Positions 1 through 28,721 of a DNA stretch of 36,091 nucleotides are shown here, piece by piece. How positions within the stretch are numbered: the first letter of the stretch is position 1; each line of letters opens with the position of its first letter. Under the pieces are notes generated by a model. It saw nothing but the letters and a program-made list of their open reading frames with translations, did not search any database and was not told the origin of the DNA. Source of the DNA: an uncultured Myxococcales bacterium. Lineage in GTDB: Bacteria > Myxococcota_A > Polyangia > Palsa-1104 > JAEUJZ01. The stretch is from contig CALMML010000473.1 in assembly GCA_937868485.1 (NCBI GenBank), positions 1-36,091 of the forward strand, read 5' to 3'. The position numbers and the translations under genes are program-made.

Positions 1-691
1 CTTGCAGCCGCAGCAGATATTATGCGCACTGGATGACTCTTATCCGCAGTGCAATCGTTTTGCATATACGCGCGATGAATCGACCTTGCTGGGCGCAACG
101 CCAGAGCTTTTGGTTGGTCGCAGCGGGCGTAGGGTTCGGACCGAAGCGCTGGCCGGAACGCGCGCACGGACCAAAGACAGCGACGATGAAAAGCTGGGTC
201 AGTCGCTCCTTCAGGATGACAAAGAGCGGCGCGAGCATGACCATGTGATTGCCGCGATTGTGGATTCGCTGCATAGCTGCGGGGTCCGTGACGTGCAGGT
301 GGATGCAACGGGTTTGCGTTTGCTGCGCAATGTCATGCACCTGTGTACGCCGATTCAGGGGCAGCTTGCGCACCCGCAACATGTCCTTGATCTGGTGGCG
401 GCGCTGCATCCAACGCCTGCTGTGTGTGGGCTCCCACGCGAGGCCGCTGCACACTTTTTGGCCCAGACAGAGCCGGTGTCACGCGGTGGTTATGCAGCCC
501 CAGTGGGATACTTTGATGCCGACGGCTGCGGCGAGTTTTGGGTGGCGCTCCGATCGGCGCTGATTCGTGCAGAGGAAGCGTGGCTGTATGCCGGAGCCGG
601 TGTGGTCGCAGGATCAGATCCAGCCACCGAGTATGCAGAGACAGAAGCCAAGCTGCGCGCAATGCGAAGTGTGATCGGAGGCGTAGCATGA
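1..691 (+). CDS. menF: Isochorismate synthase (C-terminal part, truncated by window edge)
   Basis: This is the C-terminal catalytic half of a chorismate-binding enzyme; about 229 residues are visible and the reading frame is open to the left edge, so the true start lies outside. Family signatures seen are LLGATPELLV (visible residues 29-38), TEALAGTRAR (47-56), HPTPAVCGLP (136-145), the Y-x-AP-x-GY segment near 164 and GAGVVAGSDP (198-207), with the E-Y-x-ETEAKLRAM tail. Known family role: conversion of chorismate to isochorismate, an Mg-dependent cytosolic reaction. These motifs are shared with salicylate, anthranilate and aminodeoxychorismate synthases. The call as MenF rather than EntC rests on the menaquinone genes that follow. 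Its TGA overlaps the menD ATG (ATGA), so it heads or continues a coupled operon. Confidence 0.9.
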   Translation, partial: LQPQQILCALDDSYPQCNRFAYTRDESTLLGATPELLVGRSGRRVRTEALAGTRARTKDSDDEKLGQSLLQDDKERREHDHVIAAIVDSLHSCGVRDVQVDATGLRLLRNVMHLCTPIQGQLAHPQHVLDLVAALHPTPAVCGLPREAAAHFLAQTEPVSRGGYAAPVGYFDADGCGEFWVALRSALIRAEEAWLYAGAGVVAGSDPATEYAETEAKLRAMRSVIGGVA

Positions 692-3363
692 GCGGCGATC
701 TACACAGCGCGTGGGCTCGACTGTTTGCGGTGTCTTTGGCCAAAGCCGGAGTCCGCAGTGTGGTGATCAGTCCGGGCTCTCGATCGACGCCACTGGCCTT
801 GGCCTTTGCTGCGCAGCCTACGCTGACCACGCATGTGATTGTGGATGAGCGCGTGGCCGGATTTTTTGCGCTGGGACAGGCGCGAGCAAGCGGTCTTCCT
901 ACCGTGCTGCTCTGCACGTCAGGAACGGCGGGTGCGCACTACCTTCCTGCGCTGATCGAAGCGTCGCAGAGCCACATTCCGCTCGTGGTCGTGACGGCAG
1001 ATCGTCCGTGGGAAGACTATGACTGTGCGGCGGCGCAGACCATCGATCAGGTCAAGCTGTTTGGTGATGTGGTGCGTCACTATGCAGAGCTGGGGCTTCC
1101 TGATTCCCATCCCGCTGCGCTGGCTGCGGTGGTGCGAATTGCGACGCAAGCGGTGTTCACCGCGCAACATCTGACGCCCGGTCCGGTTCACATCAATGCG
1201 CGCTTCCGCAAGCCACTGGAGCCAAGTGTGGTGGTGGAGGATGCGCCTTATCTGACGCAGATCGATGCGCTGACTGCACAGCCTGCTCCGACGGTGATTC
1301 CTGCCGGTGATGATGTTCCTGTGTCCGCGATTGACGCGCTGTATGCACGCTGCAAACGTGCGCAGCGTGGTGTGATTGTCTGTGGTCCTGCCAGCAGTCA
1401 GACCGATCTGGCTGCACTGCGGGAGTCGGTCCAGAAGCTGTCTCTGCGGACTGGCTTTCCGATCTGGGCAGAGTCCACAAGTGGGGTGCGATTTGGTTCG
1501 CAGGCAGCCATCTGTGGCGGCTTTGATGTCGCGCTACGGAGTCCTGATTTCCGTCGAGAACTTCGCCCCGATCTGCTGATCGAGCTGGGCGGTCCGGTGG
1601 TGTCTTCCGCGTATGCGCAGCTGGTCGGTTCCCTTTCCGCGTGTGATCGTGTGGTGATTGCGCCGCATGGCTGGAATGATCCGCACGGAAGCGCTGCGCT
1701 GCTGCTGATGTGTTGTCCTTCGCGACTCCTTGATGCGGTGGCCGATCGGATGGCTGCGCATGATCTTGCATCGGACCAAGATGCAAGCTGGTCGTCGCTG
1801 CACAAGGAGACAGAGCGGACCGTTCGCAGCATCGTGACCCAGTCTGTGCAGACCGAGGACTTTCAGGAAGGACAGCTGGTCCGCGCGGTGGTGGATGCGC
1901 TTCCTTTCGGTGCTGCGCTGCTGGTTGGGAACTCGCTGCCGGTGCGTGATCTCGATCTGTTCTGCGAGCCATCGGATAAGCCGCTGCGTGTATTTCATCA
2001 GCGGGGCGCGAGCGGAATTGACGGACTCATCTCCGGTGCGGCGGGTGCGCGCAGTGTGCTGCGTGAGCCGGTTGCGCTGCTGCTGGGAGACGTCAGTGCG
2101 CTGCACGATCTGTGTGGGCTGCAAGCGCTGCAAGCGGTGTCTGTTCCGCTGCCGGTGGTGATTGTTCAAAACGGTGGCGGACGGATCTTTGAGCGGCTTC
2201 CGATCGGTAGCAATGCGATCGCCAAGCCTCACTTTTCGTCGCTGTTTTTGACGCCGCGTGCGGTGGACTTTGGTCACGCCGCTGCCGCGTTTGGGCTTCC
2301 TTTTGTGCGGGTTTCGACCGAAGCCGCGCTCCGTACCGCACTAGCCCACGCGCTGGCTGCGGAGAAGCCGTGGATCATTGAAGCGGTGGTTCCTGGTTCA
2401 GTTGGCGTGACGCTTCGCAAGCAGATCGAACAGCAGGCGGCCAAAGTCCTTGCGCAGTCAAGCAAGTTGTTGTCTGCGCAAAGACCCTTGGTACAAGCGA
2501 AGTCTGTCTGCGATTCCGTTCAGGGCACGTCGGACCCGATTCCGCAGGTGTTCTTGCATGGCTTTCTGGGATCACCCACGCTGTGGCAGCCGATTCAGAG
2601 CCGCTGCGCGGGGCCGACCTTCTGTCCCTATCTGCCCGGTCATGGTCCGTCGCCGTGGCTGATTCCTGATGCAGACTTTGAAGCGGTGGTGGATGCGCTC
2701 GCGCAGCGGATTCCGTTTTCTCGCTTTGCGCTGCATGGCTATTCGCTGGGGGCGCGGCTGGCGCTGGCGCTGGCGCTGCGACATCCTGAGCGTGTCCTGT
2801 CGCTGACCTTGATCGGCGTGGATCCGGGAATCCGTGATCAGCAAGCGCGGATCGAACGACAGAAGTGGGAAGCAGAGCTTGGTCACAAGCTTGCAAGCAG
2901 CGACCTGGCTTCCTTTGTGAAGGAGTGGGAGTCGCTGCCGCTGTTTGCGTCGCAGCAGCATCTTTCCGAACAGGTCCAGCAAGCGCAGCGGAGTGATCGA
3001 CTTGATCATGATCGTGCGGCGCTGGCGTGGTCGCTGCGGGTGCTGGGAACCGGACAGATGCCCAGCTACTGGTCACAGATTCCGTCGCTGTGCATGCCGA
3101 CTCTGGTGCTAACAGGGGCTGAAGATCCCAAGTTCACAGAGATCGGTCGCGCGCTTGCGTCCCTTCATCCTCTGGTTGTGCATCGCATCGCAGCAGGATG
3201 TGGACACAACTTGTTACTGGAAGATCCTTTGTGGGTGTGGTCGCAGCTCTGTATGGGACGCGCTGCCCAACCCGCGTGTGAGACACTTGCGCAAGCAGAA
3301 TCGAGTCAGCGTGCGAGCGCTGGCGCACCTCAAACACCCTTGTCACGGAGCAGAGAGCCATGA
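688..3363 (+). CDS. menD-menH: MenD-MenH fusion: SEPHCHC synthase plus SHCHC synthase
   Basis: A single 891-residue protein with two enzymes in series. Residues 1 to about 575 are MenD, a ThDP enzyme joining isochorismate and 2-oxoglutarate: [12 protein letters not shown] (28-39), [12 protein letters not shown] with the likely catalytic Glu54, [20 protein letters not shown] and the late [12 protein letters not shown] linker of about 40 residues follows. From about 618 comes the alpha/beta hydrolase MenH, which eliminates pyruvate to give [21 protein letters not shown] with nucleophile Ser686, TGAEDP with Asp813, and [11 protein letters not shown] with His840, so the triad is intact. ATG 688 is chosen because it overlaps the menF stop and MenD homology begins there; the longer reading upstream has no MenD character. 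The stop overlaps the menB start. The two activities are consecutive, so the fusion may channel the unstable SEPHCHC intermediate (inference). Confidence 0.95.
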
Positions 3364-7625: not shown

Positions 7626-8028
7626 AGGCACTGCGTAGCGCATCGGGAACCGGACGCGGTCGGAAGGTCTTGCGATCGATGGCTACGTGAATGGTCTTTC
7701 CGACGGCGTGAACGCGACCAGGAACCGTATCAGAGACGATCTGATGATGAATCGTGACAGAGGTGTCACCAATCTCTGCACGAACGATCTCTGCGCGAAC
7801 GGGATCGCCAAAGCGTAGCGGAAACTTGTAGTCGGCTTCCGCATGCGCGAGCGGTGCGCCCCACTCTCCGGCGGAAATCACCTGTGCCAGACTGACTCCG
7901 CGCGAGGACAGATGCGCGACAAAGGCATTGTGAAAGTAGTCAAAGACGCGCGCAAAGAACACGATTCCGGCTGCGTCAATGTCTTGAAAAGGAACAAGCA
8001 TGGGCAGAGAAAACAGCGGCTGGGTCAT
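7588..8028 (-). CDS. menI: Hotdog thioesterase, probable DHNA-CoA thioesterase
   Basis: A 146-residue 4HBT-type hotdog protein. The motif VPFQDIDAAGIVFFARVFDY, with the 4HBT active-site Asp, starts about residue 12, and a HAEADYKFPLRFGDPV strand follows. The ATG at 8028 is chosen: AAGGAAGG lies just upstream and the family starts here; a longer frame running back into the aroDE gene is not protein-like. It lies 52 bp downstream of aroDE on the same strand, so they are probably co-transcribed. Menaquinone synthesis needs a thioesterase that frees DHNA from DHNA-CoA, and no other candidate is in the cluster, so MenI is the natural assignment (inference). Related hotdog proteins such as YbgC and 4-hydroxybenzoyl-CoA thioesterase look alike, so substrate is not proven. 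Confidence 0.78.
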   Translation of the reverse strand: MTQPLFSLPMLVPFQDIDAAGIVFFARVFDYFHNAFVAHLSSRGVSLAQVISAGEWGAPLAHAEADYKFPLRFGDPVRAEIVRAEIGDTSVTIHHQIVSDTVPGRVHAVGKTIHVAIDRKTFRPRPVPDALRSAFTPAASTVQAAE

Positions 8029-8080
8029 CACGGCTTCCTTCCTTCGTGCGTCCGTTCGTTCGGGAGTCTGTACTTCGTGA

Positions 8081-9547
8081 TCAGAGAGATGGGTTTTTCG
8101 TCGCCAAGTGCTGCTTCCAGAAGAGCTGCTGCGCGGCGGCTTGCTGCACAAAGAAGTCGCTTCCGTCTACGTAGTGCGCACCGACCTGCGCGGCAAAGTC
8201 TCGACCGGGTGAGTCCGCTGCGTAGTTGAGATCGAACACCAGGCGCGGACGCAGAAACGACGGCGGATCTTGCTGATGCCGACTGCGACCGACAGACCAG
8301 ATCAGCACCGACGGTGACTCCGCTGGCGATGGGAGTGCGGGAGTTCCTTGCGCGGTGGTGAGCGCTCCGCTGCGGGCCGCGACAAACAAGGCGTGGGGAA
8401 ACACCGCGCGGAGCAGAGACAGCAGTCCGCCTCCACCAAAGACGGCAAGCTGGGGACTCTGTCCGATCACATCTGCGAAGCGGAGTCGTGCGCTATCCCA
8501 CGCTGCGCGAAGGCCCACACCGTCGGTGCTACAGCCAACAATCTGTCCGTCCGGGCCCACCACCAAGGTGTTGCCAGCATCTTGCGAATCGTTTGCAAGA
8601 TGAAGATCGCTGGCTGGAGGGGACTCCCAGTGGCCTCCCAGTGCGCGAACTGCTGAAGGCAGCCACGCTTTGCACGGCGATGTCACCGCTGCGGCACGCA
8701 GACCGAGTAAGAGAAGATCCGAAAGGAGTGTCGCACTTTGAAGATCTTCGTCGCTGACACAGACTTTCAGGACCGGCATTCCGTACTGCGCAAACAGCGC
8801 GGCGTGATGGCTCGGGGTGCGGCTGTGTTCGACCGGATTGCCGATGATCGCAGCAAAGGGAAGGTCATTTCCGTCGGGAACTGGAACTTGGCGGCGAACA
8901 TACCACTCTGCTGCGGATGGCTGATCGGGGACAAGCGGCGCGTCTTCATCCCGCAGAAAGTGTAGAAGCTGAGCGTCACCCAGCAGCAAGCGATAGAAGC
9001 GGAATCGACCGGAGCCGTCGCTGGCAATCGGCAAAAAGACATGACGACGTGGATTGCTGCGCTGCCAGGTGTGACCTTGGACAAGCTCGCGAATGGTGCG
9101 GATGGGAATCGCGGCCTTGATGATCTGATCGGGCGGAGTCTGATCGGACAAGGCCAAGAGCAGCGAAGAGACTTCTTCGGATTCCTGCCGCGCATGCAAA
9201 GAGCGAATCGTTCGCAAGATGGGACGCTGGGTCAGCCAGGCTGTCAGCGACGGTGGAAGCGGTCCCAGTTCGAGCGCGATGTCCAGGAAGTGCGGATTCC
9301 AGGCCGTCACAAAGGCAGACAGATCGCTCCGCTGCCGACGGAGGCTCAGCAAGATATGATGCGCGGGAAAGGACTCTTTACAGTGCGCCAGCGCTTCATC
9401 GGTCAGCAGATCATCGCGCAGCTCGATCAAGCGGAGTCCTTGGGAAAGGAGCGCGTGCCCGAGGGAAATCGTGTCTGAGAGCGATCGGTTGGGAAGCGTG
9501 CGAAGCGTAAAGGTTGCACCGTGAAAGGAGCGCGGTGGCGCTGTCAT
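8081..9547 (-). CDS. aroDE: AroD-AroE fusion: 3-dehydroquinate dehydratase (type I) plus shikimate dehydrogenase
   Basis: A 488-residue fusion catalysing the third and fourth shikimate steps. The N-terminal type I dehydratase shows ELRDD (42-46), His118 in RSLHAR and the Schiff-base Lys144 in QIIKAAIPI. From about residue 231 comes shikimate dehydrogenase: IIGNPVEHSRTPSHH (substrate Ser242/Thr244), VTSPCK with catalytic Lys293, AGNTL, STDGVG with catalytic Asp342, the dinucleotide loop GGGGLLSL (371-378) and a C-terminal FVQQAAAQQLFW. Some usual residues differ: Ala287 where NVT has Asn, and Ser340 where NTD has Asn. The Lys-Asp dyad is intact, so it is probably active. ATG 9547 is chosen by homology; no clear Shine-Dalgarno is visible. 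The same domain order is known from plants and chlamydiae. It is divergent from aroKB. Confidence 0.92.
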   Translation of the reverse strand: MTAPPRSFHGATFTLRTLPNRSLSDTISLGHALLSQGLRLIELRDDLLTDEALAHCKESFPAHHILLSLRRQRSDLSAFVTAWNPHFLDIALELGPLPPSLTAWLTQRPILRTIRSLHARQESEEVSSLLLALSDQTPPDQIIKAAIPIRTIRELVQGHTWQRSNPRRHVFLPIASDGSGRFRFYRLLLGDAQLLHFLRDEDAPLVPDQPSAAEWYVRRQVPVPDGNDLPFAAIIGNPVEHSRTPSHHAALFAQYGMPVLKVCVSDEDLQSATLLSDLLLLGLRAAAVTSPCKAWLPSAVRALGGHWESPPASDLHLANDSQDAGNTLVVGPDGQIVGCSTDGVGLRAAWDSARLRFADVIGQSPQLAVFGGGGLLSLLRAVFPHALFVAARSGALTTAQGTPALPSPAESPSVLIWSVGRSRHQQDPPSFLRPRLVFDLNYAADSPGRDFAAQVGAHYVDGSDFFVQQAAAQQLFWKQHLATKNPSL

Positions 9548-9580
9548 GTGGTGCGAAAATCTAGCAGATCGACGAGTGCA
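9548..9580. promoter_or_regulatory. 33-bp divergent gap between aroDE and aroKB
   Basis: Two divergent start codons are only 33 bp apart. This space is too short for two separate conventional promoters with leaders. No convincing -35/-10 pair was found on either strand; on the minus strand TAGATT lies about 10 bp before the aroDE ATG and could serve as a -10 for a very short leader. Promoters may lie inside the opposite coding sequence, or one of the chosen starts may be too far upstream (an alternative aroKB ATG exists at 9599). Confidence 0.35.
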
Positions 9581-11143
9581 ATGGCAAAATCCGCGCCCAT
9601 GTTGGTTCTGTGTGGGCCTCCTTCGGTCGGGAAAAGTACAATTGGTCGGATGTGCGCACAGCGGTTGGGAGTCCGCTTCATAGACACCGATCAAGTGATT
9701 GCGCAGCAGTTCGGTGGATCGATCGCGGAGCTTGTGTCACAAGAGGGAGAAGCGGCGCTGCGAGACAGAGAGCGGGCGCTCATTGAGCGACTCCCGAGCG
9801 AGCCGTGCGTGGTGGCGGTTGGGGGCGGACTGATGACGGTGGAGCCGGTGCGGAAGCTGCTGCGCGCGCGTGGCTTTGTGGTGGGACTTGATGCTTCGCT
9901 GTCGGTTCTGCTGTCGCGGCTTGCGCAGAGTGAAGAGATCCGTCCACTGCTGCTTCCTGACCCTGCACAGACACTTCCGGGGCTCCTTTCCCGTCGAGAA
10001 TCTGCGTATCGAGATGTCGATGTTCGGATCTGTGTGGATGATCTGTCGGCAGAGCAAGCGGCAGAGTGTGTGAGTCTGCTCTATCGGCAGCGGCATCCGA
10101 CGCTCGGTATGGGAGAGGTTATCTACAGCGAGTCCCTTCCTGATCCGGCGCAGCTTGGGAGTCATTCGATCGTGGTGTCTGATCAAGTGCTGTCGTCGGT
10201 GGCGCGCGGTGCGCTGTGTCCGTGGCTGTCGCGTGTTCCGCTGCGCTATGAAGTGACGGCAGGAGAGTCGCTAAAGGAGCTGTCTGGATTCGCTTCGCAC
10301 GTTGAACAGATCTTGGCGCTGACCCAGCGAGCAGAGACGCCGGTTCAGGTGGTTGCGATCGGGGGTGGATCGGTGGGTGACTTCGCGGGCTTTTTTGCCA
10401 GCGTGTGGAAGCGTGGCGTTCCGCTTGTGCAGATTCCTTCGACGTGGCTGGCTGCGATTGACTCTGCGCACGGAGGAAAGAACGCGCTCAACGTCGGCAA
10501 GATCAAAAACCAGATCGGAACGATCGTCTTTGCGAAGCAGATTTACTTGTGCAAAGAGCTGCTGTTTCTTCAGCCCAAAGAGCGTGCGCGGGAAGCGCTG
10601 GGAGAGCTGCTGAAGATTGCAATCATCGACGGTGGAGAGTGGACGAAGGAGCTGTTTTCCTCCGCGCTGTCTGGAAACGATCTGCTGTGGCGATTTCTAC
10701 CGGATGCGGTGGCTGCGAAGTACAAGGTGGTGCGCGCCGATCCCTATGAAAAGCTGGGCGTGCGACATCACCTAAACCTGGGACATACGCTGGGCCATGT
10801 ACTGGAGTCCGTTCATCAGCTTCCGCATGGGCTCGCAGTTGCACAGGGTTTGCATTTCGCGCTGGTTGTATCAAGGAAGCTTGGCTTTCTAGCTGAAACA
10901 GACTTGCATTACCTACAGACGGTGCTGCGCGATCGATTTGGGCTTGCGGATCGCAGGCGTGAGCTTGCCAAGATTCCGCAGCGGCGCTTTGTGGAGCTGC
11001 TGGGACAAGACAAAAAGCGTACTCCCGATGCGGCGATTCGCTTCGTGGTGGTGGCGCAAGTGGGTCAGGTTCAGACGGTGGCGCTTGGTCTGCCAGCGCT
11101 GTGTGAGCTGGCGATCGAGCAGGGCTATGTTCTTGCGGAGTAA
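9581..11143 (+). CDS. aroKB: AroK-AroB fusion: shikimate kinase plus 3-dehydroquinate synthase
   Basis: A 520-residue two-enzyme protein. Residues 1 to about 165 are shikimate kinase: P-loop GPPSVGKST (12-20, Lys18), FIDTDQVI, the substrate-binding RDRE region and VAVGGGLMT. From about 175 it is dehydroquinate synthase, an NAD- and metal-dependent enzyme: VVAIGGGSVGDFAGFFAS (about 258-275), IPSTWLAAIDSAHGGKNALN, and the zinc-ligand region HHLNLGHTLGH (about 396-406). The two domains act at non-adjacent steps (second and fifth). ATG 9581 gives only six residues before the conserved core; ATG 9599 is an alternative. The frame upstream to 9521 overlaps aroDE and is not needed. aroA follows after 3 bp. 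Confidence 0.93.
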   Translation: MAKSAPMLVLCGPPSVGKSTIGRMCAQRLGVRFIDTDQVIAQQFGGSIAELVSQEGEAALRDRERALIERLPSEPCVVAVGGGLMTVEPVRKLLRARGFVVGLDASLSVLLSRLAQSEEIRPLLLPDPAQTLPGLLSRRESAYRDVDVRICVDDLSAEQAAECVSLLYRQRHPTLGMGEVIYSESLPDPAQLGSHSIVVSDQVLSSVARGALCPWLSRVPLRYEVTAGESLKELSGFASHVEQILALTQRAETPVQVVAIGGGSVGDFAGFFASVWKRGVPLVQIPSTWLAAIDSAHGGKNALNVGKIKNQIGTIVFAKQIYLCKELLFLQPKERAREALGELLKIAIIDGGEWTKELFSSALSGNDLLWRFLPDAVAAKYKVVRADPYEKLGVRHHLNLGHTLGHVLESVHQLPHGLAVAQGLHFALVVSRKLGFLAETDLHYLQTVLRDRFGLADRRRELAKIPQRRFVELLGQDKKRTPDAAIRFVVVAQVGQVQTVALGLPALCELAIEQGYVLAE

Positions 11144-19796: not shown

Positions 19797-20582
19797 TCAT
19801 TGGGATCTTCGCAGGGTCAAGATGGCAAGCTCTGCTGGAGCGCCTGCGCGGATCGGAACCGAGCTAGATCCCACCCCAGAGTTTACGTACAGCAGCGAAT
19901 CGCGAACGCGATAGAAGCCGCGCACATAGTGTTGGCCCAGCTTGCGGAAGACCAGATTGGTCAAGCCGGGAATTTGAACGTGTCCTCCGTGGGTGTGCCC
20001 TGCGAGAACCAGTCCAGGTCCAAGCTCGGAGATTGGATCGATCAGCGACGGAACGTGCGATAGGACGATGCGGCTATCGCTTGGGTGTACGCCGGAAAAG
20101 GCCTTGTGGACATCGCTCTGACGGGTGACGGCATCGTCGAGCCCAACGATCGTCAGCGGCGCACCTTTGAGCCAAAGTCGGGTGTTTTGGTTGCGCAGCA
20201 CGGTGTATTGCTCGTGAAGCAGCTCGGCTGCGACGCCGTGTCCGTCGGTCCAGTAGTCATGATTGCCCAGCACGCACACCGTCGGAACGGCAAAGCCACT
20301 CACAAGCTGACCGAGAAGCGGCACAAACTTGGGGCTGTAACAGACGAAGTCGCCGGTCATGAGCACCAGATCGGGGCGCTCCGCTTGGGCCATTTCAACG
20401 GCGCTGCGAATGAACTGATGCGAGGTGAGCGAGCCAACGTGCAGATCGCTCAGATGCGCGATCTTGAGCCCTTCGTGGGCTGGATCGAGTCCAATCACCG
20501 GCACCAGATAACGATGCAGCACCGGAAGCCGAGGTCTGCGCAGGGTTTCCTCGATGGTGGGCATGGTCTTCGCTGTGGCCAT
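19797..20582 (-). CDS. Metallophosphoesterase, YkuE/YaeI-like
   Basis: A 261-residue calcineurin-type phosphoesterase. All metal-binding blocks are visible in order: HLSDLHVG, MTGDFV, LGNHDYW, LSHVP and AGHTHGGHVQIPG. The C-terminal RGFY-x5-LYVNSGVGSS block is typical of the YkuE/YaeI group, which act at the membrane, for example on UDP-sugar or lipid-linked phosphates; the substrate here is unknown. No signal peptide or TM segment is obvious. ATG 20582 is preferred over TTG 20588. It diverges from the polysaccharide export gene, with 51 bp between starts. Confidence 0.88.
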   Translation of the reverse strand: MATAKTMPTIEETLRRPRLPVLHRYLVPVIGLDPAHEGLKIAHLSDLHVGSLTSHQFIRSAVEMAQAERPDLVLMTGDFVCYSPKFVPLLGQLVSGFAVPTVCVLGNHDYWTDGHGVAAELLHEQYTVLRNQNTRLWLKGAPLTIVGLDDAVTRQSDVHKAFSGVHPSDSRIVLSHVPSLIDPISELGPGLVLAGHTHGGHVQIPGLTNLVFRKLGQHYVRGFYRVRDSLLYVNSGVGSSSVPIRAGAPAELAILTLRRSQ

Positions 20583-20633
20583 GTCCAAGTATAGAAGGCG
20601 CTCAGACTGCTTGTGCTAGCATTCGCCGACAAC
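20583..20633. promoter_or_regulatory. Divergent promoter region, metallophosphoesterase / export operon
   Basis: On the minus strand TATACT (20593-20588) is a good -10 hexamer only 5 bp before the ATG of the phosphoesterase, which would give a leaderless or nearly leaderless message; no good -35 was found at the right distance. On the plus strand, TGTGCTAGCAT near 20611-20621 resembles an extended -10 for the export operon. Both are weak, sequence-only suggestions. Confidence 0.3.
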
Positions 20634-21260
20634 ATGCCGATCTTGACCGTGCGCTGGCTCAGAATTGCTGCGCTTGTGACGCTGCCGTGGCTGCTCGCGA
20701 GTGGCTTAGGCTGTACGCCGTTTGTGCCTCGTTATGACTATGAGATCGAGCCAGATCCGACGCGGATGGAGTATGTGATCGGTCCGGGCGACATCATCGA
20801 CATTCGGCAGTGGAAAAATCCCGATGTGTCGGGTCGAGTCCGAGTGCTTCCCGACGGGAATATCTCGGTGCCGCTGCTCGGTCAGATTCAGGCGGCGGGA
20901 CTGACGGCGCGTGCGCTGCGGGAAAAGCTGTCGAAGGGCTTGGAAAAATACATCGCACAAAATGCGGACATGCCGACGCTGACGGTGGCGGTGGACGAGT
21001 TTCAGAGCTACACCGTGAGCATCGTCGGAGAAGTCTCGCAGCCGGGTCACTATCAGCCGGGACATTATGTGTCGGTGCTGGATGCGCTCGGGCTGGCGCA
21101 TGGACTATCGCCGTACGCGAAGGGTGAGCAGATGTTTATCCTGCGACGAACAGCGACGGAACAGCGTAAGATTCCGATCTCGTATCCGGCGCTTTTGACG
21201 GGCAAGCATCCCGAGATGAACCTGCATCTGTTGCGCGGCGACGTGCTGGTTGTGCCATGA
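20634..21260 (+). CDS. Short polysaccharide export protein (OPX/Wza family)
   Basis: A 208-residue protein with a signal peptide (IAALVTLPWLLASGLGC, a loose lipobox with Cys near 26). A Poly_export domain follows (YVIGPGDIIDIRQWKNPDVS, VRVLPDGNISVPLLGQIQAAG), then one SLBB domain (SIVGEVSQPGHYQPGHYVSV). It would form the periplasmic channel for exopolysaccharide export. It lacks the long C-terminal part that builds the outer-membrane helix barrel in E. coli Wza; short OPX proteins in myxobacteria are known to work with separate barrel partners. ATG 20634 is chosen over an upstream in-frame TTG at 20613 because the signal peptide then begins with a normal n-region. Its stop overlaps the next start (ATGA). 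Confidence 0.88.
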   Translation: MPILTVRWLRIAALVTLPWLLASGLGCTPFVPRYDYEIEPDPTRMEYVIGPGDIIDIRQWKNPDVSGRVRVLPDGNISVPLLGQIQAAGLTARALREKLSKGLEKYIAQNADMPTLTVAVDEFQSYTVSIVGEVSQPGHYQPGHYVSVLDALGLAHGLSPYAKGEQMFILRRTATEQRKIPISYPALLTGKHPEMNLHLLRGDVLVVP

Positions 21261-22036
21261 CCGAGACGACGCCCGAGACGGTTGATGTGCTGGGCGTTCG
21301 GTTTCCTCGTCTGTATAGCGAGGAAGCGGTGGCGCTGCTGCTCGGGAAGCTGCGGAGCGGACAGAGCACGGGCGTCTGCTTTCCAGACATGTCGACGCTG
21401 AACATCGCAGCGGAACAGCCAAGCTTTCGACGGCTGCTTCAGCGCAAGATGCTGGTCTTGGCCGACGGTGCGGGGGTGATGTGGGTGGCCAGCTGGTTGG
21501 GCAAGCCGCTGCCCGCGAACCTCAATGGAACCGATCTGGTGCCGCGCTTATTCGCCGCTGCGCCGGATGGAACGACGGTGTTTTTGGTCGGTGGCCACGA
21601 CGGTGTGGCCGATCAGACGAGCCAGCGCTTTGCGACACGGTTTCCTCATCTGCGCTTCGTCGGCAGCTCGCACGGATATTTGAACGACGCGAGCGAACGC
21701 GCGCTGATCGAGCGACTGCGTGTGCTGCGGCCTCAGGTTGTGCTCGTCGGAATGGGCAATCCCAAGCAGGTCGAGTTCATCTGTCGGCATCTCGACGATC
21801 CGGGGCTTGGCGGGACGCTGTGGCTGGCCGTCGGTGGACAGTTTGACTATTACGGCGGAACGCTGCGACGTGCGCCGTCGTGGCTGCGCAAGGTTCGTCT
21901 GGAGTGGCTGTACATCGTCGCGCAGCAGCCTCATAAGCTTCATCGCTATTTCGTCGGAATTCCGCTGTATCTGTCGCGCTGTGCGCTGGCGACGCTGCTT
22001 CACTCGCACGATCTACCGAACGGAGAGCCATCGTGA
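21257..22036 (+). CDS. WecG/TagA/CpsF-family glycosyltransferase
   Basis: A 259-residue GT26-family enzyme, which transfers a sugar (ManNAc, ManNAcA or glucose-type in known members) to a lipid-linked acceptor on the cytoplasmic face of the membrane. Seen: TLN and LADGAGV (68-74), NLNGTDL (89-95), VFLVGG, VLVGMGNPKQ (about 162-171), VGGQFDYYGG, and the C-terminal RAPSWLRKVRLEWLY. The start overlaps the export-protein stop (ATGA) and the stop overlaps the deacetylase GTG (GTGA). It supports an exopolysaccharide or surface-glycan operon. Sugar specificity cannot be read here. Confidence 0.92.
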   Translation: MTETTPETVDVLGVRFPRLYSEEAVALLLGKLRSGQSTGVCFPDMSTLNIAAEQPSFRRLLQRKMLVLADGAGVMWVASWLGKPLPANLNGTDLVPRLFAAAPDGTTVFLVGGHDGVADQTSQRFATRFPHLRFVGSSHGYLNDASERALIERLRVLRPQVVLVGMGNPKQVEFICRHLDDPGLGGTLWLAVGGQFDYYGGTLRRAPSWLRKVRLEWLYIVAQQPHKLHRYFVGIPLYLSRCALATLLHSHDLPNGEPS

Positions 22037-22842
22037 CGGTGAAGTCGCTGGCACGCGGTCTGACCAAGCGAGTGTTGCGCGATGCGGTGGCGACGCTGGG
22101 ACCGCTTCAGCTCGTCGATGACGGTCCGCGTATTCTCTGTTATCACGGGGTGTCCAACGATCCGCCCGACGAGTGGTCGGTCACGCCTGCCCAGCTTTCG
22201 GAGCAGATGAAGATCATCGCTGGCGAAGGCTCACCGGTTTCGCTGCCGCAGATTGTCTCGTGGCTGCTCGACGGAACGCCGCTTCCCGAGCGCGCGATCG
22301 CGGTGACTTTTGACGACGGCTACCAAGATGTCTATCGCTATGCGGCTCCGATCCTGGCGCAGCACCGAGTGAGCGCGACGGCGTTTGTGATAAGCGGGCT
22401 GTGCGACGGGCTGGCTCGGGATGTGAGCTATCAGCCGAGTCGTCCCATGCTCAGCTGGGACGAAGTGCGGGCGCTGGGACAGCTTGGCTGGACGATTGGC
22501 TCGCATACGCTGTCGCACCCGATTTTGTCGCAGCAGAGCGACGATGACTCGCGGCGAGAGCTGGTTGATTCTCGGCGACGGCTGACACAGATGCTCGGGC
22601 ACGAGGTGACGCTGCTGGCGTATCCGTACGGAACCCGTCGCACAGTGTCGTCGAGAGAACATCGTCTGGCCAAAGCGGCAGGTTATCAGGCGGCATTTTT
22701 GGATGCGATTGGCTCGGTATCTCGTCGCTGTGATCGCTTTGCGTTGCCTCGCTGCAAGGTGCTGGGGACGGACTCGCTGCGGGTGTTTCGTTCGTCGCTG
22801 CGTGGTCAGCTGGATCTGTGGCGTCGCGTCGAGGATCGCTAA
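22033..22842 (+). CDS. Polysaccharide deacetylase (NodB/CE4 family)
   Basis: A 269-residue NodB-homology protein. Metal and catalytic blocks: VTFDDGYQD (91-99, Asp94/Asp95), SHTLSHP (157-163, His158/His162) and LAYPYGTRR (195-203). It would remove N-acetyl groups from a growing polysaccharide or oligosaccharide. No signal peptide was seen, so it may act in the cytosol on lipid-linked precursors or be membrane-associated. The GTG start at 22033 overlaps the stop of the glycosyltransferase by 4 bp. An LCYHGVSNDPPDEWSVTP block near 35 is typical of exosortase/PEP-CTERM and EPS-linked deacetylases (family knowledge). Confidence 0.92.
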   Translation: MTVKSLARGLTKRVLRDAVATLGPLQLVDDGPRILCYHGVSNDPPDEWSVTPAQLSEQMKIIAGEGSPVSLPQIVSWLLDGTPLPERAIAVTFDDGYQDVYRYAAPILAQHRVSATAFVISGLCDGLARDVSYQPSRPMLSWDEVRALGQLGWTIGSHTLSHPILSQQSDDDSRRELVDSRRRLTQMLGHEVTLLAYPYGTRRTVSSREHRLAKAAGYQAAFLDAIGSVSRRCDRFALPRCKVLGTDSLRVFRSSLRGQLDLWRRVEDR

Positions 22843-22845
22843 CCG

Positions 22846-24483
22846 ATGACGCAGCCGCTGCTTCAGGTGACGGGACTTTCGCGCAGCGCTGCCGACGTTC
22901 GTCTGCCGGACATGGTGTATGGCGTGCCGGTGCTCTGTCCGCTCGCGTGTGCCGATGTACTGGCGATCGAGGCTGAGCCGCTTGTGAGCCAGCGTGGTGT
23001 GCGCGCCGTTCTGACGGAAGACAGTGTGCTTTCGGGCCACGGCCAGCGGTTTCAGAGGCTGCTTGGGCAGCTTTTGACAAAGCGTGTTCGACGGGCAGGA
23101 CAGGTCGTTGCGCTGGTGCTTGCTGATTCGCCCTGGCTGGCGAAGTCGGTCGCGCGTCAGGTTTCCCTGCGCATCCGAGAGCAAGCCGGGCCGCTTTCGG
23201 TTCAATCTGCGATCGCGATGGGTGGTTCTCAGCAGCCGATTCGTCGCAGCAGCGGACAGCCAGCGGAAGCGTTTGCGGACAGTCGAACCAGGCTGCATCA
23301 GACCTATCGAACCAGCGCGCGTCTGGTCGGCGATGTAGCACACGGCACAGCGACGGCAGTGTGGCGTGGCGATTCCTTGACGGTCTATGCGATCGGTGCG
23401 TCGAAACAGATGCTGGGAACGCAGCTGGGACTGCCCGAAGACAAGCTCCTCGTGGTGTCGTCGGAGCTTGGTGATTCGCGGTCGCTGACATCGTCATCGT
23501 CGCTGCTGGCGGCGATCGCGTCGGCGCACTTGGATCGTCCGGTCTGCGTCGAGCTGCCTGCGCTGTGCATCGCTGGAACCCTGCCGGAGACGATTCAGAC
23601 GCTTCAGCTTGGGCTCCTTGCGGACGACTTGCCGAGCGCGCTGCTGCTTCACGGTGCCGTCGCCGGTTCGTTTTCGGGTCAGCCGTCTGAGCTGAGCGTC
23701 ATGGATCTGGGCAGTGCCTACGGTTTTTCCGCGCGTGAGCTGTCGCTGTTGCCGCTCGCGGTTCATCTACCGACAAGCGATCGCTTCGTCGGTATCGAGC
23801 TTGCGCTGTCGCTGGAAGTGGCGATCGACGAGCTTGCGACGCAGCGCAGTGAAGATCCGCTGCAGCTTCGGCTCCGCTGGCTGTCGGATCGTCCTGAGGG
23901 CGCTCCTCTTCGTCGCTGCTTGACCCAGCTTCAGAAGCTGCTTGGGGATGGAAAGCCCAGTGTGCCGCGTTCGAAGGACGCTTCGTCGGGCAGCTTGCTG
24001 GGACGGAAGATCGGCGTGGGCACGGCGGCGGCGGTGTGGCGATCGGCGTCGGGAACGCTTCAGTTTGGCGCGCACGCGATCGAAGTCGCGGTGTCGTCGG
24101 GACGAATCGAGCTGGTTCGACATGCTTGCGTGCTCGAGACGGACTTGGTTTCCGACGGAGCCGAGTCCGTGGTGCGGAAGAGCCTGGCCTGGGCTCGAAA
24201 GGTGGCGCTTCGTCGGTCCCTTGTTCTAAGCCGTCGCAGTGGTTGGACGTCGTCGTCGCCAGATGAAGCTGCACGCTCGACAACCGTCGCGAACTTGGCG
24301 GTCAGCCTGCTGCCATCAGGAGCCCCCGGATCAGTCAGGACAAATCCCGACGATCTCGCGATGTTGGCGGCATCGGGTGTTGCCGCTGCGATCGCCAACG
24401 CGCTGTCTTCGGCACTTGGTGTTCGTCAGCGCACCGTGTGTCCTTCCGGCGTAGAAGGGACGTCAGGGTCGACGGTCGGGTGA
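22846..24483 (+). CDS. Degenerate xanthine-dehydrogenase-like (molybdopterin subunit) protein
   Basis: A 545-residue protein of unclear function. The N-terminus resembles the a/b-hammerhead domain of xanthine dehydrogenase/aldehyde oxidase large subunits (LPDMVYGVPVLCPLACADVLAI, RGVRAVLTEDSV, RVRRAGQVVALVLADSPW). The middle keeps the order HGTATAVWRGDSLTVYAIGASK then LGLPEDKLLVV. The C-terminus ends AAAIANALSSALGVRQR, like the family's ApAiaNAi-x-AtGvR end. But the usual GGGFGxK loop is LGDSRSLTSS, the catalytic GxGE glutamate is missing, and it is about 200 residues short. It is therefore probably a cofactor-free relative (inference). It starts 3 bp after the deacetylase stop, so it is co-transcribed with the glycan genes. 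No Fe-S or FAD subunit genes lie beside it. Confidence 0.7.
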   Translation: MTQPLLQVTGLSRSAADVRLPDMVYGVPVLCPLACADVLAIEAEPLVSQRGVRAVLTEDSVLSGHGQRFQRLLGQLLTKRVRRAGQVVALVLADSPWLAKSVARQVSLRIREQAGPLSVQSAIAMGGSQQPIRRSSGQPAEAFADSRTRLHQTYRTSARLVGDVAHGTATAVWRGDSLTVYAIGASKQMLGTQLGLPEDKLLVVSSELGDSRSLTSSSSLLAAIASAHLDRPVCVELPALCIAGTLPETIQTLQLGLLADDLPSALLLHGAVAGSFSGQPSELSVMDLGSAYGFSARELSLLPLAVHLPTSDRFVGIELALSLEVAIDELATQRSEDPLQLRLRWLSDRPEGAPLRRCLTQLQKLLGDGKPSVPRSKDASSGSLLGRKIGVGTAAAVWRSASGTLQFGAHAIEVAVSSGRIELVRHACVLETDLVSDGAESVVRKSLAWARKVALRRSLVLSRRSGWTSSSPDEAARSTTVANLAVSLLPSGAPGSVRTNPDDLAMLAASGVAAAIANALSSALGVRQRTVCPSGVEGTSGSTVG

Positions 24484-24602
24484 CGCAGGTAGGCGATGGT
24501 AGGTCTGTCTGCGTAGCGCGGAAAACTGCGTCGCTGAGCATGTGCCATTGAAAGCGAAACCAAGCTGTGGCATCCGTATGGAATAGACAGTTTTTTAAAT
24601 GC

Positions 24603-24609
24603 AAGGAGG
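24603..24609 (+). promoter_or_regulatory. Strong Shine-Dalgarno deciding the start at 24614
   Basis: AAGGAGG lies 4 bp before ATG 24614 and excludes the in-frame ATG at 24599, which has only a poly-T stretch ahead of it. It is the strongest ribosome-binding site seen in the window and suggests high expression of the outer-membrane protein. Confidence 0.8.
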
Positions 24610-24613
24610 CCTC

Positions 24614-25717
24614 ATGCGGTCCTTGTTCGTGAGCACTGAGCGTTGCCGTTTCGGAAAGTCCGCTTCGCTGCGAATGACCTCTGTCGCTGCGCTCTTGTCC
24701 GGCGTTGCGTTGACAAGCTCGCTGGCGGTAGCCGCTGAGCCGGTGGTTTCGTCTGACGAACCACAGTCTACATCGGTGACGCAGTCGACAACCACCACGA
24801 CGGTGACGACCAACACGCCGTCTGTGACCGTTGCGCCGCTTCCGCCGCCGCCGATGGTGAGTGCGACGGTGGTGACGCCGCTTCCCGCTGCACCTCAGCC
24901 GATCGCGCCGACGGTGATTGCGCCGGTTCAGGTTGCTCCTCAGCCGCAGCCGTTCGTCGGTAACCCGGTTCAGGGTCCGATCTACTTCAACGGTCCGGTG
25001 TGGATCATCCCGGCGCAGCCCGGTCAAGCGATGGTGCAGCCCGCACTGCCGCAGCAGCTTCCGCCGCCGCCGGTGTTTGTGCAGCCGCCGCAGCTGTATT
25101 CGCCGCCGCCGCTGGTTCGTCCGATTCGCCCGATGCCGATCGTTCGTCGTCCGGTGGTGGCGCGTCCGGCGCCGCGTGGTCCGGTGTTCGGGATGGGCGT
25201 TCGCTTCACCTCGTACGGCATTCGCTCGCAGGAAGTGTTCGGTGAAAAACCGACGCTGATGGGCGGTGGTGTTCAGCTTCGCTTCCGCAACCAGGGCCAC
25301 TGGGGCTTTGAGCTGGCTCTCGATGCGACGCGCGCCAACATTGCGGACGGTGCGTTTGTGCGGACCTCGTATCCGTTCACGTTCGCGCCGATGCTGTACC
25401 TGTTCCAAAACCGTCCCGATCGCCACTTCAACATCTACGCGACGGCGGGCTTCGGGCTGATGGCGAGCGACATCGCGCTGTATCAGGGCTCGCGTCAGGA
25501 ACGAAACCAGCAGTTCTGGGAAGTGCTCGGTCAGGCGGGCGGTGGTGTGGAGCTTCGCTTTACCCGACTGGCTCTGTTTTCGGATCTGCGCGCGGTCGGA
25601 ACGCTGCTCGATCAGGGCAGCGAGCCCGGCAAGTTCTACGATGGCGTGAACAGCGGTCCGATTGCTCCGTCGACGATTGGCTACAAGCTCAACATCGGCG
25701 CGATGCTGTGGTTCTAG
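24614..25717 (+). CDS. Proline-rich outer-membrane beta-barrel protein
   Basis: A 367-residue exported protein that I do not recognise as a named family. The signal peptide spans about 1-41 (SVAALLSGVALTSSLAVAA). A Thr/Val-rich segment is followed by a long Pro/Gln/Val-rich linker (about 70-190, with PLPPPPM and QQLPPPPVFVQPPQ), then about 170 residues of alternating strands (MGVRFTSYGIRSQEV, LRFRNQGHWGFELALDAT) ending in GAMLWF. The terminal Phe is the usual Omp targeting signal. The linker may span periplasm or peptidoglycan before a small barrel (inference). It stands alone, with a 130-bp upstream gap and a hairpin after the stop. The whole reverse strand is also open, an artefact of composition. 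Confidence 0.8.
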   Translation: MRSLFVSTERCRFGKSASLRMTSVAALLSGVALTSSLAVAAEPVVSSDEPQSTSVTQSTTTTTVTTNTPSVTVAPLPPPPMVSATVVTPLPAAPQPIAPTVIAPVQVAPQPQPFVGNPVQGPIYFNGPVWIIPAQPGQAMVQPALPQQLPPPPVFVQPPQLYSPPPLVRPIRPMPIVRRPVVARPAPRGPVFGMGVRFTSYGIRSQEVFGEKPTLMGGGVQLRFRNQGHWGFELALDATRANIADGAFVRTSYPFTFAPMLYLFQNRPDRHFNIYATAGFGLMASDIALYQGSRQERNQQFWEVLGQAGGGVELRFTRLALFSDLRAVGTLLDQGSEPGKFYDGVNSGPIAPSTIGYKLNIGAMLWF

Positions 25718-25809: not shown

Positions 25810-27216
25810 ATGCCAAATCCCGATCATCCTCCGTCGAGCGCCGAGCGCAGTGGCGGCAGTGATTTCCACATTGAGTTCGAGGGTCGCGCGGTCCGGGCCC
25901 GTCACGGTGACACGGTTGCATCGGCGCTGATCGCTGCGGGCGTCCAGGTCTTGAGTCGCTCGCTGAAGTTTCATCGTCCGCGATCGGTGTTTTGTCTGAG
26001 CGGCTCGTGTGGTTCCTGTCTGATGCGCATCGACGGACAGCCCAATACTCGGTCGTGTCAGGTCAAGGCTGAGCCGGGGCTGCGCTGTGAGCGTCAAAAT
26101 GCCTGGCCGTCGGCGGACTACGATCTGCTGTCGGCGGCAGACGCGATGTTTCCGCTTGGGATGGATCACCACACGATGTTTACGTCGCCGCGTCCGCTGA
26201 ATCGGCTGATGCAGAAGGTCGTGCATCAGCTGGGTGGGCTCGGGCGACTTCCCGAAGTGGATGCGGAGCTTGCGAGCGCAGCGTCGGTGGTCTGTCAGCA
26301 CGTCGCGGTTCTGGTGATTGGCGGTGGTCCGGCGGGACTTGCGGCAGCGACGGAAGCAGCCACGGCTCTGGGACAGACGGGGCGAGTGCTGCTCTTGGAG
26401 TCGCAACATTCCGTCGGTGGTAGCTATCTGTGTCATCCCGAGCTAGGCCGGGACAGAGCGCACGCAGCCCTTCAGCTTGCCCAAGAAGCGGGCGTCGAGA
26501 TTCTGACGGGAACCGCTGCGTTTGGTTTCTATCGAGAAGAGCGTCACGCTGCGCAGCCGGGTGCGGAGCTTGGCTTCGTCGCGGCTGCGTCGGATCAAGT
26601 GCTGTATAAGCTGTCGGCTGATCGCTATGTCTACGCGACGGGAGGAGCCGCGCAAAACCTGCTGTTCATCGACAATGATCGGCCTGGTGTGATGTCGGGT
26701 CGTGCCGTCGGAAGATTGCTGGCTTGTCATGGCATTCGCGTCGGAGAAATGCCGCTGGTGGTGGGCTGCGATCCGTTTGCGGATGAGCTGGTGTCAGCGC
26801 TGCGACGGAGTGGTCAGACGGTGATTCACATCGATGGGACGCGCGAAAAGCTGACACGGGCGCTCGGTGGATCGTGGGTCGAAGGCGCGGAAGTCTGCGA
26901 CGAGCGTGGCGTGCATCGAACCGTGCGCTGCGACTTGATTGTGATTGCGACGCCTCCCGCTGCGGCCAGTGAGCTGCTGGTTCAGCACGGAGTCACTGTC
27001 GAGCTTCGTCAGCCAGGTGGCTTTGTGGGCGTGGCCGATGCGCAGGGTCAGACGAATGTTCCGACGGTCTTTGTCTGTGGCGAAGTCAGCGGTGCGATGA
27101 CGGCGCAGGACGCAGCGGATCACGGTGCGCGCGTCGGTCTTTCGGCGGCGCAGGATCGTATCAGCGAGCAAGCGCGTGACGCAGCGGCTCGCAACATCGG
27201 CCAAGATCAGGAATAA
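25810..27216 (+). CDS. [2Fe-2S]/FAD subunit of a sarcosine-oxidase-like dehydrogenase
   Basis: A 468-residue flavoprotein. Residues about 18-100 form a ferredoxin-like Fer2_4 domain with Cys62, Cys67, Cys70 and Cys83 (C-x4-C-x2-C-x12-C). A pyridine nucleotide-disulphide type FAD domain follows (VLVIGGGPAGLAAA, 168-181; YVYATGG; VFVCGEVSGAMTAQDA with the second FAD site). This matches the N-terminal half of SoxA, and HcnA plus HcnB joined. It lacks the folate-binding GcvT-like part of SoxA, so it would not be a tetrahydrofolate-dependent sarcosine oxidase. It probably passes electrons from an amino acid or opine substrate, oxidised by the third gene, to a quinone or other acceptor (inference). 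No clear ribosome-binding site precedes ATG 25810. Confidence 0.87.
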   Translation: MPNPDHPPSSAERSGGSDFHIEFEGRAVRARHGDTVASALIAAGVQVLSRSLKFHRPRSVFCLSGSCGSCLMRIDGQPNTRSCQVKAEPGLRCERQNAWPSADYDLLSAADAMFPLGMDHHTMFTSPRPLNRLMQKVVHQLGGLGRLPEVDAELASAASVVCQHVAVLVIGGGPAGLAAATEAATALGQTGRVLLLESQHSVGGSYLCHPELGRDRAHAALQLAQEAGVEILTGTAAFGFYREERHAAQPGAELGFVAAASDQVLYKLSADRYVYATGGAAQNLLFIDNDRPGVMSGRAVGRLLACHGIRVGEMPLVVGCDPFADELVSALRRSGQTVIHIDGTREKLTRALGGSWVEGAEVCDERGVHRTVRCDLIVIATPPAAASELLVQHGVTVELRQPGGFVGVADAQGQTNVPTVFVCGEVSGAMTAQDAADHGARVGLSAAQDRISEQARDAAARNIGQDQE

Positions 27217-27229
27217 CTGCGAGGGTGTC

Positions 27230-27544
27230 ATGTCCGAAAAGTGCATCGTCTGCCCCTGTGAGGATGTGACGCTGGCCGATGTCGAGCAGGCGATCGGGCT
27301 CGGCTACTTGGATATCGATGAGGTCAAGCGCTTCACCGGGCTGGGAACCGGGTCGTGCCAAGGCAAGCTGTGCATGGTGACGACGTGTCAGCTGCTTCAG
27401 ACGGCGCAGGCTGCGGATCCTCAGCGTGTGCAGCGACAGCCCGAAGCGCAGCGCGTGCCGCATCCGTTTACGCCACGTCCGCCGGTGGTGCCGGTGCCGC
27501 TCGGCGTGCTCGCTGCGGGCAAAGGAGCCGATCGTGAGCGCTAG
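27230..27544 (+). CDS. Stand-alone BFD-like [2Fe-2S] protein
   Basis: A 104-residue small protein. Residues 1-57 are a BFD-like [2Fe-2S] domain: CPCEDVT with Cys8 and Cys10, and GSCQGKLC with Cys43 and Cys48; VKRFTGLGTGSCQG resembles the matching segment in SoxA and HcnB. An extra Cys5 lies just ahead. The C-terminal half is Pro/Gln/Arg-rich and probably disordered. In relatives this domain is normally fused to the flavin subunit; here it is a separate gene 13 bp downstream of it. GAGGGTGTC before ATG 27230 is a plausible ribosome-binding site. It overlaps the next gene by 11 bp. It likely completes the electron path of this enzyme. Confidence 0.88.
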   Translation: MSEKCIVCPCEDVTLADVEQAIGLGYLDIDEVKRFTGLGTGSCQGKLCMVTTCQLLQTAQAADPQRVQRQPEAQRVPHPFTPRPPVVPVPLGVLAAGKGADRER

Positions 27545-28721
27545 GGAACGAATGCCTGCGTCGGCGGCTCAGCTGGCGACGGAAGCCGAGACGGTGATCA
27601 TCGGCGGCGGCATCATGGGCCTGGGCATCGCCTACGAGCTTGGCAAGCGTGGCCGCAGCGACATCCACGTCATCGAGCAGGAATACCTGACAAGCGGCGC
27701 GTCGGGACGCAACGGTGGCGGCGTTCGCATGCAGTGGTCGACGGAGCTAAACATCCGTCTGATGCAAGAATCGATCGAGATCTGTCGCAACTTCGCGTCG
27801 GAGCTTGGGATCAATGTCTGGCTGCGCCAAGGCGGCTATCTGTTTCTGATTCGTAGTCAGCAAGAGCTTTCGCGCTTAGAACAGACGGTGGCGCTGCAAA
27901 ATCGCTGTGGTGTTCCGACGCGGATTCTGACGCCGCAAGAAGCGCTGCGGGTGGTGCCCGAGTTGAATCCCTCTGGCTTTGTCGCCGCTTGCTATAACCC
28001 GCGCGATGGCGTCGTGTTTCCCTGGCCGTTTCTGTGGGGTTACGCGCACGCAGCGTCGGAGCTGGGCGTTCACATTCACACCTACACCAAGGTGACGGCG
28101 ATCGAGGTCCGTGGGCCGCACTCCTTTGTGGTGACGACCAGCAAGGGAACGATTCGCTGTGAGCGCGTCATCAACTGCGCCGGAGCATGGTCGCCCGCGA
28201 TTGCCAAGCTGGTTGGCGTCGAGCTTCCGAATCATCCGCATCGTCACGAGATCTTGGCCACCGAGTCGCTCAAGCCGTTTTTGAACCCGCTCGTGAGCGT
28301 GCTCAGCTCTGGGCTGTACTTTTCGCAGTCGATGCGTGGCGAGATCGTCGGTGGCATCACGGTGCCCGATGTCGATGATGGAACCGTTCGTCTTGGCTCG
28401 CGGCTGCGCTTTTTGGAAGACATGTCGGCAGAGCTTCTGTCGGTCATGCCGTGCCTGTCGTCGGTTCGGGTGCTGCGTCAGTGGGCCGGTCCGTACGACG
28501 TGTCTCCCGATGGCCTTCCGATCTTGGGCGAACCCGACGGAATTCCTGGCTTTTACTTGGTCTGCGGCTTCGTCGGACACGGCTTTATGATGGCGCCGGT
28601 GATCGCTCGCCATTACGCAGAGCTACTGTGCGGAGGCGCGCGTCATCCGGTGTTCGATCGCTGTCGGCTGTCGCGCTTCCAAGATGGCTCCACGGAAAAG
28701 GAAGTGATGATCATCGGTTAG
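27534..28721 (+). CDS. FAD-dependent amino acid/opine dehydrogenase, DAO family (SoxB-like)
   Basis: A 395-residue DAO-family flavoenzyme. Dinucleotide loop VIIGGGIMGLGIAYELGKRG (21-40), then TSGASGRNGGGVRMQWSTEL, typical of sarcosine oxidase beta and related dehydrogenases. Near the C-terminus are RQWAGPYDVSPDGLPILGE and GFVGHGFMMAP. It would oxidise a secondary amine or amino acid such as sarcosine, proline, hydroxyproline, glycine or an opine; the sequence does not decide between them. GTG 27534 is chosen because AAAGGAG lies about 7 bp upstream; a frame open to 27426 lacks homology. It overlaps the BFD gene by 11 bp, so the three genes are one coupled unit and probably one complex. Confidence 0.88.
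   Translation: MSARERMPASAAQLATEAETVIIGGGIMGLGIAYELGKRGRSDIHVIEQEYLTSGASGRNGGGVRMQWSTELNIRLMQESIEICRNFASELGINVWLRQGGYLFLIRSQQELSRLEQTVALQNRCGVPTRILTPQEALRVVPELNPSGFVAACYNPRDGVVFPWPFLWGYAHAASELGVHIHTYTKVTAIEVRGPHSFVVTTSKGTIRCERVINCAGAWSPAIAKLVGVELPNHPHRHEILATESLKPFLNPLVSVLSSGLYFSQSMRGEIVGGITVPDVDDGTVRLGSRLRFLEDMSAELLSVMPCLSSVRVLRQWAGPYDVSPDGLPILGEPDGIPGFYLVCGFVGHGFMMAPVIARHYAELLCGGARHPVFDRCRLSRFQDGSTEKEVMIIG

Follow-up and report, generated by a model that had tools for sequence, protein, structure and literature searches.

A PaoC-like pseudoenzyme gene in a glycan operon of an uncultured Myxococcales bacterium suggests a periplasmic iron-sulphur complex that lost its molybdenum site

Why would an operon with genes for polysaccharide export and glycosyl transfer carry what resembles the large subunit of a molybdenum hydroxylase? 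This question is raised by positions 22,846 to 24,483 of the window, i.e., the whole stretch of 36,091 nucleotides analysed here (contig CALMML010000473.1, assembly GCA_937868485.1). The original prediction, made from the letters of this DNA, described the product as xanthine-dehydrogenase-like, devoid of cofactor motifs and possibly repurposed as a fold for polysaccharide assembly.

Family and active-site motifs of the window protein

Pfam assignments of the three upstream genes agreed with the predicted export/glycosyltransferase operon, and the stop codon of the deacetylase gene lies 3 bp before the start of the gene of interest, referred to here as pseudo-PaoC:

20613..21260, + strand: outer-membrane polysaccharide export protein OPX (PF02563, Poly_export, 3.8e-21; TIGR03027)
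21257..22036, + strand: WecG/TagA/CpsF glycosyltransferase (PF03808, 3.8e-48)
22033..22842, + strand: CE4 polysaccharide deacetylase with TFDDG and HTLSHP motifs (PF01522, 2.7e-27)
22846..24483, + strand: pseudo-PaoC, 545 aa (family matches, orthologs, selection)
24599..25717, + strand: outer-membrane beta-barrel-like protein (PF13505, below its cut-off; adjoins the gene in three of three genomes)

The beta-barrel-like gene starts 115 bp downstream of pseudo-PaoC and is probably its own transcription unit. An ORF at 20085-20594 (+) was rejected as the operon start, being antisense to a metallophosphoesterase gene at 19797-20588 (-). This ORF is a shadow with an apparent dN/dS of 1.35, while the minus strand holds the conserved gene (PF00149), which puts the start of the OPX operon at about 20613. 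Elsewhere in the window, we observed a fused menaquinone biosynthesis gene (MenD-MenH) followed by MenB-like (enoyl-CoA hydratase) and MenA-like (UbiA) genes (538-3363), and a fused shikimate kinase/3-dehydroquinate synthase gene (AroK-AroB) followed by EPSP synthase and chorismate synthase genes (9521-11143). At 25810-28721, a fused 2Fe-2S/pyridine-nucleotide-disulphide oxidoreductase is paired with a DAO-type flavoprotein; the pair resembles sarcosine oxidase alpha/beta, is conserved in G002, and is presumably HcnABC-like.

Judged by its sequence, the window protein falls within the xanthine-oxidase family, on its PaoC branch. It matched PaoC in NCBIfam (5.5e-30) and in the PDB (chains 5g5g/5g5h, 6e-21), and profile-profile comparison with intact PaoC gave a probability of 99% (E 4e-19). 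Pfam matches were found to Ald_Xan_dh_C (8.5e-10) and MoCoBD_1 (2.2e-4); for the latter (PF02738), the window protein scored 20.9 bits, below the cut-off of 27, and the G002 ortholog 29.4 bits, above it. Homology to the molybdenum hydroxylase large subunit spans the hammerhead and Moco domains, and the original prediction was confirmed on this point. Its comparison with XdhB/AOX proteins holds for the superfamily and fails for the closest branch, since PaoC is nearer by score and by tree. No signal peptide was seen in the 545-aa protein, and no carbohydrate-binding family matched it in Pfam or NCBIfam. AlphaFold2 models were unusable, with a pLDDT of 33 from the single sequence and 32 from a two-sequence alignment.

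Compared with intact PaoC (722-738 aa), the window protein lacks 177-193 residues, close to the predicted deficit of about 200. Alignment with intact relatives placed what is kept and what is lost as follows:

22888..23175, + strand: a/b hammerhead domain (Ald_Xan_dh_C), residues 15-110 (PF01315, 8.5e-10, above cut-off)
23248..23880, + strand: remains of Moco-binding domain 1, residues 135-345 (PF02738, window copy and G002 ortholog)
23464..23484, + strand: site of the lost GGGFGxK Moco loop, reading ELGDSRS with three residues deleted (alignment with intact relatives; three of three orthologs)
23782..23799, + strand: site of the lost RAPGE loop, reading RFVGIE (alignment)
24052..24057, + strand: deletion junction G403/T404, where about 150 residues with QDIGTGT, GDT and GGS are gone (alignment; three of three orthologs)
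24361..24363, + strand: position of the catalytic Glu of KGxGE, occupied by Met506 (alignment)

We take GGGFGxK, RAPGE and the QDIGTGT/GDT/GGS block to be the Moco-contact segments of the xanthine-oxidase family, and the KGxGE glutamate to be its base catalyst. The loss of the GGGFGxK loop and of the catalytic glutamate, as originally predicted, was evident from the alignment. Across the three orthologs, the RAPGE (RxxG) loop reads RFVGIE, RFVGVE or a divergent stretch, and the catalytic Glu column holds Met in the window protein and Ala and Arg in the other two. Pseudo-PaoC has kept its hammerhead domain along with the core of the Moco domains. To go by these motifs, the window protein is almost certainly a catalytically inactive relative of PaoC.

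Conservation within the genus and an orphan PaoA-PaoB pair

The comparison covered three draft genomes of one genus (G000, G001, and G002). Intact orthologs with 69% and 49% identity to the window protein occur in both other genomes with the same neighbours, including the CE4 gene beside which the original prediction had suggested looking for them. In all three genomes, the order is CE4 deacetylase, pseudo-PaoC, outer-membrane protein gene, and the 3 bp gap to CE4 is kept. Values of dN/dS were 0.29-0.32 at a dS of 0.8-1.7, with changes mostly at third codon positions, and no stop codon was observed where neutral simulation (0.4-0.8 changes per site) yielded 13-19 on average. Synteny, third-position changes, dN/dS and the absence of stops together show that the frame is not a chance ORF. 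A decaying window copy with intact relatives, which the original prediction had named as a possible outcome, was rejected: no ortholog has intact cofactor motifs, and all are under selection. Because the motif losses are common to all three intact orthologs and these are under purifying selection, the window protein is, on this comparative evidence, a stable, conserved pseudoenzyme and not a decaying gene. Pseudo-PaoC has changed faster than the other genes of the operon (69% identity vs. 81-93%), the dN/dS values of OPX, WecG, and CE4 are lower (0.11-0.16), and its C-terminal third is least constrained (pN about 0.3). A phylum-wide profile search (379 genomes) revealed no short members outside the genus; among the matches listed, all frames elsewhere had at least 724 aa. 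Viral contigs scanned with the orthologs and with intact PaoC yielded no further relatives.

We then counted large (PF02738), 2Fe-2S (PF01799) and FAD (PF00941) subunits of molybdenum hydroxylases in the three genomes. Each genome holds exactly one PaoA-PaoB pair without a large subunit (G000:C14, G002:C99, and G001:C731) and one pseudo-large subunit without partners; the orphan pair is the only PaoAB pair, and pseudo-PaoC is the only partnerless large subunit. G001 also has a fragment of a large subunit (C863), a partial gene that leaves the tally undisturbed, and the window protein's own genome has separate intact large subunits on other contigs. Pseudo-PaoC and paoAB occupy separate loci on different contigs in all three genomes and share no operon. 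The orphan pair is preceded directly by an LppC-like lipoprotein gene and followed by dapD; on L152, orphan PaoA is encoded at 8708-9322 (-) and orphan PaoB at 7721-8704 (-). This LppC/periplasmic-binding-type gene (L152:9319-11169 (-); also L153 and L154) overlaps orphan paoA by 4 bp in three of three genomes, which suggests that it is translationally coupled to the pair. Elsewhere in the family, other genera have the LppC-like gene without PaoAB after it, and neither pseudo-PaoC nor PaoAB was found at the corresponding loci.

Orphan PaoA keeps a twin-arginine (Tat) motif and all eight Fe-S cluster cysteines, and in orphan PaoB all four cysteines that align with the [4Fe-4S] loop of PaoB are still present (three of three genomes in each case). 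The FAD motifs of PaoB are changed in all three (GGT to GGG, GGN to GGE, DRxSY lost), although Pfam FAD_binding_5 still matches at 4e-32; given these changes, erosion may affect the entire complex, or flavin may be missing from it as well. Both genes are under purifying selection, with dN/dS of 0.14-0.29 for PaoA and 0.14-0.24 for PaoB.

The closest relatives of these genes outside the genus converge on two intact operons, G007:C335 and G031:C7, with the gene order paoA-paoB-paoC followed by XdhC/PaoD-type genes. Orphan PaoB matched their PaoB at 188 and 167 bits (next best, 114), the best matches of the window protein were their PaoC proteins, and orphan PaoA matched best in G007:C335. In the large-subunit tree, the window protein branches with PaoC-type proteins (support 94/93), and the PaoB tree (SH-aLRT 88) agrees. 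The simplest history would be one paoABC-type set that was split to two loci in the genus and whose large subunit was gutted.

Possible roles of pseudo-PaoC

Our leading reading, to which we give about an even chance, is that a split, molybdenum-free derivative of the periplasmic aldehyde oxidoreductase PaoABC has the product of the window gene as its large subunit, in which case pseudo-PaoC would be structural. The ancestral complex would have comprised PaoA with two [2Fe-2S] clusters and a Tat signal, PaoB with FAD, and PaoC with Moco. In the genus, PaoA and PaoB are encoded behind the LppC-like gene and the presumed PaoC descendant behind CE4 in the OPX-WecG operon; the three proteins may still associate. 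Pseudo-PaoC would then let PaoA-PaoB fold and pass Tat quality control, complete the complex and reach the periplasm by hitchhiking, where the assembly may serve as an iron-sulphur electron-transfer or redox-sensing module of the cell envelope without molybdenum chemistry. In E. coli, PaoB and PaoC depend on Tat-tagged PaoA to carry them into the periplasm, and export of PaoA is blocked without PaoB or without PaoC (PMC4273604). Such a dependence would give a reason to keep a dead PaoC: by completing the trimer, it would stay as long as the Fe-S module of PaoA-PaoB is useful. Only tentatively do we go further and propose a complex without molybdenum site, and perhaps without flavin, that keeps three Fe-S clusters, Tat export and the pseudo-large subunit as a clamp, and that now acts in the periplasm as a redox relay or sensor, tied to operons for envelope polysaccharide and for lipoprotein.

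The three Pao-type genes could instead be what is left of an aldehyde oxidase that the genus has lost, held by a weak remaining constraint and bound to disappear. The fast evolution of pseudo-PaoC relative to its neighbours, its poorly constrained C-terminal third and the altered FAD motifs of PaoB fit such a relic, yet frames have stayed intact in three species over distances at which neutral drift would bring 13-19 stops, dN/dS lies at 0.14-0.32 across all three genes, and the Fe-S cysteines and Tat motif are kept throughout; we consider this reading unlikely.

More doubtful still is the role first proposed, i.e., a stand-alone PaoC-like scaffold or regulator of the OPX/WecG/CE4 glycan pathway to which the orphan PaoA-PaoB pair is unrelated. 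The invariant 3 bp coupling to CE4, the absence of paoAB beside the gene and its conservation together with the operon speak for it. Against it, in each genome the sole partnerless PaoAB pair is of the same PaoABC branch, and carbohydrate-binding matches are lacking in the families searched. Furthermore, another genus of the family, g3 (G004), has OPX and WecG orthologs, located at contig ends, without pseudo-PaoC; in place of CE4 and pseudo-PaoC, an unrelated TPR gene follows WecG there. A role of pseudo-PaoC in glycan assembly or modification is read from gene position and is the weakest step of the argument, and we did not uphold this part of the original prediction. A split PaoABC-type complex explains more, because the nearest relatives of the orphan PaoA-PaoB pair adjoin the nearest PaoC genes. 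Least probable is an enzyme that is still active, with another cofactor or another chemistry in its remodelled large subunit, which would feed the Fe-S chain of PaoA-PaoB or be fed by it. The Fe-S ligands kept in both partner subunits would be sensible if electrons still flow, but the sequences show no evident new conserved motif for metal or nucleotide, the residue at the catalytic position varies, and much of the active-site region has been deleted.

In the literature searched, no inactive or pseudoenzyme member of the molybdenum-hydroxylase family is described. If the proposed split complex is real, the Fe-S half of these enzymes can outlast a dead catalytic half, and the ternary Tat hitchhiker rule, under which export fails without PaoC, would be a reason for keeping the dead subunit.

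Comparison with known molybdenum hydroxylases

E. coli PaoC (YagR; PDB 5g5g/5g5h) is the best NCBIfam and PDB match of the window protein and shares with it the order of hammerhead and Moco domains, the lack of a signal peptide and the presence of PaoA- and PaoB-type partners in the genome. It differs in length (732 aa vs. 545 aa) and in possessing GGGFGxK, RAPGE, the QDIGTGT-to-GGS block and the catalytic Glu, all absent from the window protein. Unlike E. coli paoC, the window gene lies apart from paoAB, and no paoD adjoins it. The large subunits XdhB and AOX belong to the same superfamily, but form a more distant branch by score and tree. The intact operons of G007:C335 and G031:C7 hold the closest relatives of pseudo-PaoC and orphan PaoB, and in G007 also of PaoA; in contrast to the split loci, they are contiguous, have full cofactor motifs and are followed by XdhC/PaoD-type and MobA-like genes. 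In their PaoA proteins (L175:5692-6720 (-) and L176:5370-6464 (-)), about 150 additional N-terminal residues precede the twin-arginine motif, which sets them apart from orphan PaoA.
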